A stretch of 64,000 nucleotides of DNA, taken from NCBI RefSeq assembly GCF_029338255.1, contig NZ_CP119787.1, positions 186,001 to 250,000 of the forward strand, written 5' to 3'. A program made the position numbers and the translations under genes. The notes beneath the pieces are model-generated. The model was given only the letters and a program-made list of their open reading frames with translations, searched no databases and was not told the DNA's origin. This DNA is from Haloarcula halobia. Its GTDB lineage: Archaea > Halobacteriota > Halobacteria > Halobacteriales > Haloarculaceae. This document shows positions 60,295 to 62,325 of this stretch, one piece after another. How positions within the stretch are numbered: the first letter of the stretch is position 1; every line of letters begins with the position of its first letter.

Positions 60295-60375
60295 TCAGGC
60301 AGCGACGAAGAAGCCGAACCCCGGACTGCGTGGCGACTGGCGCGCGACACCGGCACTGCGGGATTCGGATGCCAT
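60295..60375 (-). CDS. 26-residue leader peptide with Phe cluster upstream of pheS-pheT
   Basis: ATG 60375 opens a short frame reading MASESRSAGV then ARQSPRSPGFGFFVAA and TGA at 60295-60297. Three of 26 residues are Phe, all within four codons near the end (TTC GGC TTC TTC). TTTTA at 60400-60404 lies 27 nt before the ATG, exactly as for leaderless haloarchaeal genes, so this is probably the first thing translated on the pheS-pheT mRNA. This is the arrangement of the bacterial pheST leader peptide: low charged tRNA-Phe stalls the ribosome and changes the downstream RNA fold. Function is inferred, and the composition could be chance. Confidence 0.5.
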   Translation of the reverse strand: MASESRSAGVARQSPRSPGFGFFVAA

Positions 60376-60405: not shown

Positions 60406-60470
60406 CGTTGTGACGCCGGCTAGCAACCGATTGGTGTGCCGCAGCGTACGCAACGCCAGCAGATAACATC

Positions 60471-60510
60471 GAAACCCGCCAGAAAGTCCCCGGGCGCTTT
60501 CAGTCCACCC
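60471..60510 (-). repeat. Short copy of a GGGTGGACTGAAAG...CTTTCTGG repeat
   Basis: On the minus strand GGGTGGACTGAAAG is followed by CGCCCGGGGACTTTCTGGCGG. It has the same two ends as the longer plus-strand copy at 60534-60658 but lacks its middle. The two copies point away from each other and share a 14-bp perfect inverted repeat (60497-60510 and 60534-60547) separated by 23 nt. Confidence 0.65.
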
Positions 60511-60533
60511 AGGATAAATGACCAACCGGCTAC

Positions 60534-60658
60534 GGGTGGACTGAAAGGGGCGACGCGTTCGGCAAACCCGGACGACGCAAGCACTGGAGCGAACGGAGTG
60601 AGCGAAGCGCGCAGCGAGGCCCGGGAGTCGAACGCGTCGGGGCTTTCTGGCGGTTCGC
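60534..60658 (+). repeat. Long copy of the same repeat with a nested palindrome
   Basis: Plus strand GGGTGGACTGAAAGGGG at the left and GGGGCTTTCTGGCGG at the right. Inside are perfect 11-bp inverted arms CGACGCGTTCG (60551-60561) and CGAACGCGTCG (60629-60639), and the core contains GAGCGAACGGAGTGAGCGAA, a sequence I recall from many haloarchaeal intergenic repeats. It could fold into one long hairpin. The protein-like frame over it on the plus strand is basic and not a gene. Confidence 0.65.
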
Positions 60659-60702
60659 GGTCACCACTGTGCCCGCACCACCGAAACAGAAACCGAGGAA
60701 TA

Positions 60703-62325
60703 TTAGTCGCGTCGTCGGTCGGACTCGAGTTCGATGTCGAGTTCGTCGAGTTTCGCCGCCCACTCGTCGCGTTTCTCCTGGTGGTCCTCGAGGAACTCGC
60801 GCATGAGTTCGGCGGCCTGCTCCTTGCACCCGCCACAGAGGCGCTCGCCGCCGACACACTCCTCGTAGACCTCCGTAGCGAACTCGTCGTCGTCGCCCGA
60901 CAAGAGGTACGCGTATAGTTCGTAGACCGGGCACTCGTCGGCCTTCCCGCCCTTCTCACGCTGTTCCGCGGCGGTGGCCCGGCCGCCGGTGGTCGCCGAT
61001 TTGACCTTGTCGTAGCCGTCCTCGGGGTCGTCGAGCAGGGAGATGTGTGACGCCGGGATCGAGGAGGACATCTTCCCGCCGGTGAGGCCGGTCATGAAGC
61101 GGTGGTAGACCGAGGACGGCGGGAGGAAGCCGTACCCGCCGTTGTCGAGTTCGACCTCGCGGGCCAGGTCCGCGGCCTCGTCCTGCGAGAGGTCGAAGGC
61201 GTCGACGTGTTCGTCGTAGACGCGCTTCTCGCCGTCGACGGCCTCGACGAGCGCGTCGAAGGCGGCGTCGGTCGCGCGTCGGTCGAAGATGCGCGTCCGG
61301 GGCCGGATGGGTTCCTTCCCGGCGTTCTCCAGTTTCTCGACGGCAGACTCGCGGGCCTCGCCGGGTTCGAGGTCCTGCTCGCGCAGCCAGTCGGCGGCCT
61401 CGCCACAGCGGGGCCGGTCGGCGTCCTCGGCGTAGTCCGTCCGGGCGTTGTAGGCCTTCCGCAGCAGGCCGCGCTCGGCCGGGTTCGCCTCGAAGCTCGC
61501 GTACGCCTCGGTCACGCCGAAGTAGCGCATCCGGGCCGCGAGGTCCCGGACCAGGCGCATGTGGGGGTCCTGGTCGGGGCCGACGGGGATGACGGTCGGC
61601 TTGGGCTCGTCGAGTTGCGGGTAGAGGATGTCGGCCATCTGCGTGACGACCGACTGCATGTGCGAGACGTCCGTCTCGCCGTCGAAGTCGTAGATGGCCT
61701 GCAGCTCCGAGAAGTTGGCCTCGACACCCAGTTCGAACGCGAGGTCCTGGACCTCGCGGTTGGTCGACTGGCGGTAGAGTTCCCCCTCCTCGGGGTCGAA
61801 GCCCAGCGCGAGCAGCGAGAGGACGTAACTGCGGGTGTGCTCGTCGATCTCGGCCCACGAGAGGTCGCGGGCGGCGTGGGCCTCCAGATCGGCGATGAGG
61901 CCGTAGGCGTCCCCGCCCTGCTCCTGGTGCCAGATTATCTCGTCGAACACCATCTTGTGGCCGATGTGGGGGTCGCCGGTCGGCATGAACCCCGAGAGCG
62001 CGGCGAAGTCCTCGCCCTCGCGTATCGCGCGGGCGACCCGGTCGTAGTCACGGTGGCCGAAGATGACGCTCCGGCGCATCAGGTAGTGGGGGTTCGGGAC
62101 GCCCGGGAGGATGTCGTCGAAGGCCCCGATGCCGAACTGGTCGAACAGTTTGCGGTAGTCCGCGACGGTCGAGGAGCCCCAAGGGTCAAGCGCCACGTCG
62201 TCGGCACCGGCGGCGTCGGCGCCGCCGTCGGTCCGGAAGTCCTCCGACTCACGCCACGGCGCCCCCGACTGGCGGCGGTCCTCGGCGGGCGATGCGTCGT
62301 CGTGGGGCGCGTCGTGGTCGGTCAT
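60703..62325 (-). CDS. trpS: Tryptophanyl-tRNA synthetase
   Basis: A 540-residue class I synthetase of the archaeal/eukaryotic type. An acidic N-terminal extension precedes the HIGH motif (PTGDPHIGHKMVF). VIPVGPDQDPHMRLVRDLA lines the active site, and KMSSS (GGKMSSSIPASH) is the second signature. The C-terminal part ends with a Cys-containing helix (GGERLCGGCKEQ). ATG 62325 overlaps the endA stop (ATGA), so the two are translated together. It attaches Trp to tRNA-Trp. Confidence 0.95.
   Translation of the reverse strand: MTDHDAPHDDASPAEDRRQSGAPWRESEDFRTDGGADAAGADDVALDPWGSSTVADYRKLFDQFGIGAFDDILPGVPNPHYLMRRSVIFGHRDYDRVARAIREGEDFAALSGFMPTGDPHIGHKMVFDEIIWHQEQGGDAYGLIADLEAHAARDLSWAEIDEHTRSYVLSLLALGFDPEEGELYRQSTNREVQDLAFELGVEANFSELQAIYDFDGETDVSHMQSVVTQMADILYPQLDEPKPTVIPVGPDQDPHMRLVRDLAARMRYFGVTEAYASFEANPAERGLLRKAYNARTDYAEDADRPRCGEAADWLREQDLEPGEARESAVEKLENAGKEPIRPRTRIFDRRATDAAFDALVEAVDGEKRVYDEHVDAFDLSQDEAADLAREVELDNGGYGFLPPSSVYHRFMTGLTGGKMSSSIPASHISLLDDPEDGYDKVKSATTGGRATAAEQREKGGKADECPVYELYAYLLSGDDDEFATEVYEECVGGERLCGGCKEQAAELMREFLEDHQEKRDEWAAKLDELDIELESDRRRD

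Follow-up and report, generated by a model that had tools for sequence, protein, structure and literature searches.

Among described systems, the closest to the element reported here are the palindrome-associated transposable elements (PATEs) of Haloquadratum. According to their 2011 description (PMC3119063), PATEs derive from IS605-type transposons, have near-terminal palindromes, a heterogeneous terminal stretch of 20-50 bp and a short conserved terminal oligonucleotide, and are known with core deletions and with small repeats inserted into the palindromes. Another point of reference is provided by repetitive extragenic palindromic sequences (REPs), which a second paper describes as 20-40 bp long with GTAG or CGTC at one end, the GTAG REPs accompanying RAYT genes (PMC3733652). 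We analysed a 64,000-nt stretch of the archaeon Haloarcula halobia (contig NZ_CP119787.1, positions 186,001 to 250,000), referred to as the window and held in a 3.48 Mb genome (G000:C1:186001-250000), and looked at a paired palindromic repeat between two of its minus-strand genes. We take the left neighbour to be pheS and the right one to be trpS, names based on their proteins and on an earlier, sequence-only reading of the window. The closest trpS relatives among named genomes belong to Haloarcula and Halomicroarcula. The repeat is probably a decayed copy of a non-autonomous haloarchaeal mobile element that resembles PATEs and miniature inverted-repeat transposable elements (MITEs) and has a strand-specific folding core.

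The sequence-only reading had described two divergent copies of a nested repeat at this site, and both were found head to head, a short copy on the minus strand and a long copy on the plus strand, with 23 nt between the heads. Its distinction of two sizes holds, while its figures of about 40 and 125 nt are replaced by measured lengths of 35 and about 120 nt. The 14-bp inverted repeat that it placed around the 23 nt was recovered in full (60497-60510 and 60534-60547, 14 of 14 matching). Further pairings include an outer inverted repeat (60476-60490 and 60639-60653, 93% over 15 nt) and a stem (60543-60561 and 60629-60647, 84% over 19 nt). The repeat pair that it outlined is real, although its limits were too narrow, the element extending from a CTAG on the pheS side to a TTAG on the trpS side.

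A covariance model, which the sequence-only reading had proposed for the core, was built from copies of the repeat unit, each member of a head-to-head pair being called a half. From 56 halves in the first loci, 42 of 94-120 nt were kept, the excluded ones being 12 halves enlarged by inserts to 150-234 nt, a short half and a very short one. L025, with an inverted body, and L077 were further dropped, giving the 40 rows of alignment A1. The structure was drawn by hand from A1 and then counted, and model R1 was made from it. The fold comprises 36 pairs, with 97.3% of 1410 cells paired and two-sided changes at 24 of the pairs, a value that none of 500 shuffles reached. Slid versions of the structure were only 31-45% paired; this control favours the drawn structure because that structure was derived from the same alignment. 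Unpaired letters in the internal loops of the unit are also conserved. Against R1, the long copy, itself among the 40 training rows, scored 132.6 bits (E 1e-24); the short copy, which was not used for training, scored 24.5 bits (E 0.005).

The unit belongs to a real family of elements that is widely spread in haloarchaea. The strict head-to-head pattern gave 107 occurrences, and the 15 genomes that contain them, out of 41, are all of one genus. A backwards-read control gave none; together with the R1 scores of both copies, these counts place the pattern above chance. Of the 41 genomes, 31 contain sequence matching the 321-base region. R1, for which no more than 18 candidates per genome were scored, had matches in 165 of the 194 genomes sampled from the class (57 of 65 genera) and none in the other 29. 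The window's own genome gave 19 R1 matches at E ≤ 0.1 and 18 at E ≤ 0.001, two of the matches being opposite strands of one stretch with an inverted body. The many further copies found in this genome and in other haloarchaea answer the search that the sequence-only reading had suggested, and the lack of other copies, which it had named as refuting, does not apply. A single-copy feature had seemed plausible from an exact 14-mer unique to this site in its own genome, and was rejected after relaxed and structural searches. Related genomes differ widely in copy number, some having no copy and others many. Matches also came from twelve plasmid records, which carry ten haloarchaeal genus names; with respect to viral carriage, phage records gave no match at E 1e-5 and IMG/VR contained no exact 17-mer.

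Several variants of the unit were seen. In L025 of the window's genome, the body of the plus-strand half is inverted between the P1 arms while the constant ends keep their normal orientation, and R1 matches both strands. In other genera (L194, L208, L215, L216, L101), a different stretch that they share, CGGCTGGGGAGGCGTG or similar, stands before the unit in place of a second head-to-head unit. About 12 of the 56 halves contain extra stretches with short hairpins inside the unit (L037, L042, L055, L063, L065, L068, L070, L074, L075, L076). Such hairpin-bearing inserts account for most of the difference between L049 and L063, which are orthologous copies, so that the unit itself seems to be a target for a second, small palindromic module.

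All 59 pairs examined with a simple codon-score gene finder were intergenic, with tandem (33), divergent (14), convergent (7) or undetermined (5) neighbouring genes. This placement, often directly after a stop codon, and the presence of the unit in most sampled genera are what one might expect of an element kept by the host for a cellular role, for example as a terminator, mRNA stabiliser or nucleoid site, similar to bacterial interspersed mosaic elements (BIMEs). We consider such a role very improbable, given the highly uneven copy number, the 29 genomes lacking a match and the orthologous sites that are either occupied or empty. Moreover, of the 54 pairs with both neighbours called, 14 lie between divergent genes and 7 between convergent genes.

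On the outward strand of the A1 halves, G.T and T.G pairs outnumber A.C and C.A pairs by 43 to 13, and a single column pair in one subtype accounts for six of the latter. Helix P1 was counted separately in 172 distinct halves, partly the same as those of A1 and each with at least 9 of its 12 pairs of Watson-Crick type; here G.T-type pairs exceed A.C-type pairs by 37 to 7. This excess suggests that the outward strand of each half is the strand kept foldable. For the long half in the window, the RNA energy z-score is better on the minus strand (-4.38) than on the plus strand (-1.70), which counts against outward-strand folding; the short half does not fold better than shuffled sequences do (z 0.93). 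The structured RNA family proposed by the sequence-only reading survives as a covarying, strand-asymmetric fold, which is compatible with RNA and with single-stranded DNA alike. The halves are unlikely to be structured non-coding RNA genes, that is, a divergent pair transcribed outwards from the spacer in which the RNA is selected and mobility is incidental. The strong covariation, the G.T excess and the conserved loop letters would fit such genes, whereas the better energy score on the minus strand and the uneven copy number would not, nor would the spacers. The sequence-only reading had noted a TATA-like GGATAAATG in the window's spacer, but this is not a family feature: ATAAAT, ATTTAT, TTTATA and TATAAA are absent from 59 other spacers, whose mean G+C is 69%, and the reading of the spacer as a promoter is not supported. 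No Rfam family reached its cut-off over the window element or in five copy loci, where 13 sub-threshold matches were mostly to microRNA models.

The mobility suggested by the sequence-only reading, which had spoken of a REP/MITE-like element, is well supported for the family by comparison of copies, because some have IS6-type ends with perfect 8-bp duplications and because orthologous sites are occupied in some genomes and uninterrupted in others. Copies of the IS6-ended kind (type ii) end in repeats like GGYRGTGTTTAG, mostly 39 nt past the core. Among 127 distinct core blocks, IS6-type motifs were found on both sides in six and on one side in six more; 30 of the loci examined had been fetched with the end motif itself. 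The flanking duplications of the six two-ended blocks match at 8/8 positions in four, 6/8 in one and 2/8 in one. A 697-bp insertion sequence (IS) bounded by the same ends encodes a 211-aa IS6-family transposase (NCBIfam NF033587, E 2.1e-56; Pfam DDE_Tnp_IS240). Its copies L299, L305, L307, L309 and L313 have 8/8 duplications, and L296 and L304 have 3/8.

The window copy is of the other kind (type i), bounded by CTAG and TTAG and without IS6 ends. We scored type i ends in 59 head-to-head loci of five genomes, on outer sides with a recognisable core end. CTAG was found within 100 nt of the core end on 69 of 111 sides, compared with 7.4 expected at the rate of those loci. Where both sides of a pair were scored (52 pairs), CTAG was present on both sides in 21, on one side in 23 and on neither in 8. 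Of 42 sides facing a convergent gene, 15 have a CTAG that also provides the stop codon of that gene, a count that rules out CTAG always being the neighbour's stop codon. Type i copies have near-terminal palindromes, and long terminal inverted repeats are absent. Joined-flank queries for four sites identified uninterrupted relatives at three. Core-deleted forms with unit ends still visible occur in G002 and G007, and short interruptions without a recognisable core in G008 and G011.

At the pheS-trpS site, 10 of 28 loci were readable up to the pheS leader by a motif test. Of these ten, the window's genome and G013, its nearest relative, contain the element, a short uninterrupted region was found in seven (G001, G004, G006, G009, G015, G016 and G017), and L082 has other sequence. 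At the same site, L110 (Haloarcula rara) has a full pair and L115 a remnant, and a core is also present in G010. Both halves are full length in G013, where the window has one. The window's short copy is, on this comparison, a deletion product that lost its core. The features of the window element are listed in Table 1.

Table 1. Parts of the pheS-trpS element, in window positions
Feature	Position	Strand	Basis
Whole element, 287 bp, CTAG to decayed CTAG (TTAG)	60420-60706		Alignment with the 378-bp G013 orthologue, which has CTAG at both ends
pheS-side CTAG end	60420-60423		Sequence; identical in G013
Tail of short half	60424-60475	-	G013 97% identical (query 1-97); G013 CTAG in the common phase (L272, 55 nt)
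Short half, unit without its core	60476-60510	-	R1 match; G013 counterpart full length
Spacer between the two heads	60511-60533		Recurrence of the head-to-head pattern (107 cases, 15 of 41 genomes)
Long half, full-length family unit	60534-60655	+	R1 match
GAAAG arm of outer helix (helix 1), partner 60643-60647	60543-60547	+	Invariant in 40 of 40 rows
5' arm of helix P1, 12 pairs, partner 60627-60638	60552-60563	+	Two-sided changes at 12 of 12 pairs in 40 sequences
3' arm of helix P1	60627-60638	+	Same 40-sequence pairing count
Tail of long half	60656-60702	+	Sequence between unit and end
TTAG, decayed CTAG end, containing the trpS stop TAA (-, 60703-60705)	60703-60706		CTAG in G013, where the trpS stop is TAG

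These observations can be arranged in a model of the element. Its centre would consist of two inverted units of about 120 nt, joined head to head through a short spacer and each folding on its own outward strand, with a variable tail and then a terminal signal outside each unit. Copies would be moved by a transposase supplied in trans, presumably that of IS6 for type ii. Type i copies occupy CTAG, a scarce word, partly at stop codons, which would spare genes. The folded core may be a handle for a transposition or resolution protein that recognises the element as a single strand, in the manner of the hairpins of REP/IS200-type elements; this is the least secure step. In the window, one half would later have lost its core, leaving the 35-nt copy.

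The tails of the element show a periodicity. A CTAG lies within 104 nt in 94 of 163 distinct tails, and the first CTAG falls in one phase modulo 3 in 82 of these (8 and 4 in the other phases). In tails with CTAG, 75% of the in-phase third bases are pyrimidines (C or T), compared with 63% in tails without it, and this triplet pattern weakens past CTAG. Judging by phase-specific base frequencies, composition alone would favour a different phase. At orthologous sites in different species, flanks that are 90-97% identical often border unrelated tails, while other pairs keep the tail. The phase suggested the tail as a coding sequence, a candidate that was set aside on its flat G+C by codon position and its commonest triplets, ACA and GCA. 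Stops in frame 0 are depleted (12 versus 27.8 expected, z -3.4). Overall the coding tests are mixed and would neither show nor exclude coding, because frame 1 is stop-depleted as well (z -2.6). In some copies (L224, L233, L231, L246 and others), the 3' end of the unit and the tail are tandemly repeated, commonly with a 45-nt period.

A broader reading, which we regard as unlikely, treats the core as a class-wide folded module that is carried by two or more unrelated transposition systems and retained because it has a function of its own as a paired single strand with strand specificity. The hypervariable tail joined to it in CTAG-type copies, with its length in one phase modulo 3 and every third base mostly a pyrimidine, would then look as if the spacing between fold and CTAG were read off by a triplet-stepping protein, for example a RecA-type filament or a ribosome.

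Several points weigh against the window holding a decayed mobile element of the kind modelled above. The model leaves the triplet phase of the tails unexplained. Type i has no assigned transposase, and its only inverted repetition is CTAG itself with a weak motif beside it. CTAG is likely a target duplication, but this falls short of proof because the sole clean alignment over the joint (G001, CACCTCGG versus CACCTAGG) has an empty site that reads CTCG; the other empty sites differ there in length or sequence. A general blind search for end repeats and duplications did not outperform its control, with 6 of 129 blocks against 15 in the control. No copy was observed moving.

Next to the element, a conserved short open reading frame (ORF; window 60295-60375, minus strand) lies directly upstream of pheS in the Haloarcula loci read. 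It ends in GFGFFF or similar, e.g. MASESHRAGVARQPPVRPGFGFFFAA, and is present in 25 of 80 named trpS loci. It looks like a phenylalanine-rich leader peptide and could possibly be part of a pheST attenuator in an archaeon; a literature search listed nothing on this ORF.

The results would add a lineage-wide element family without an Rfam match and partly tied to an IS6 transposase, and R1 could serve annotators as a model for its copies. The CTAG-bounded kind suggests how an element may exploit a scarce word partly located at stop codons, and the triplet phase of the tails poses a well-defined question that can be put to the test. A literature search recognised no paper describing the unit; most subscription journals were outside its scope, and we do not claim that the unit is unpublished.

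Like REPs, REPINs and BIMEs as described in PMC3733652, the elements are dispersed intergenic palindromes, often in inverted pairs and with a defined strand. Unlike them, the unit is about 120 nt long and has no GTAG or CGTC tag. Y1 transposase genes are present in five of eight Haloarcula genomes, and the core is at none of their 10 TnpA loci. The REP label of the sequence-only reading therefore does not apply in its strict sense, since size, tag and partner gene differ. A paper on REPs of bacteria and archaea (PMC12306157) has no haloarchaeal names in its text.

The PATEs and SMR-A repeats of Haloquadratum walsbyi are more similar. Each of the PATE traits named above from PMC3119063 has a counterpart here: near-end palindromes, a heterogeneous tail, a short terminal word, core deletions and nested small repeats. 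This raises the alternative that the element is itself a PATE, a shortened IS605-type relative moved as single-stranded DNA by a Y1 transposase. However, PATEs are tied to IS605-type transposons in that description, whereas in the eight Haloarcula genomes (10 of 10 TnpA and 30 of 69 TnpB places surveyed) a single core match at E ≤ 0.001 was found among the 40 loci, a weak one (L400, 31 bits) and none at the TnpA places. An IS605 origin of the unit is not supported by this survey. With CTAG at both ends of the element, and type ii copies clearly IS6-ended with duplications, we consider the PATE alternative quite improbable. The probable mobile element described here also compares with MITEs moved by IS6. 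Type ii copies resemble these in having the terminal repeats and 8-bp duplications of the 697-bp IS6-family element. The differences are that IS6 ends are absent from the window copy and that the interior, rather than being a shortened IS, is a conserved folded pair that is also found in the CTAG-bounded elements.
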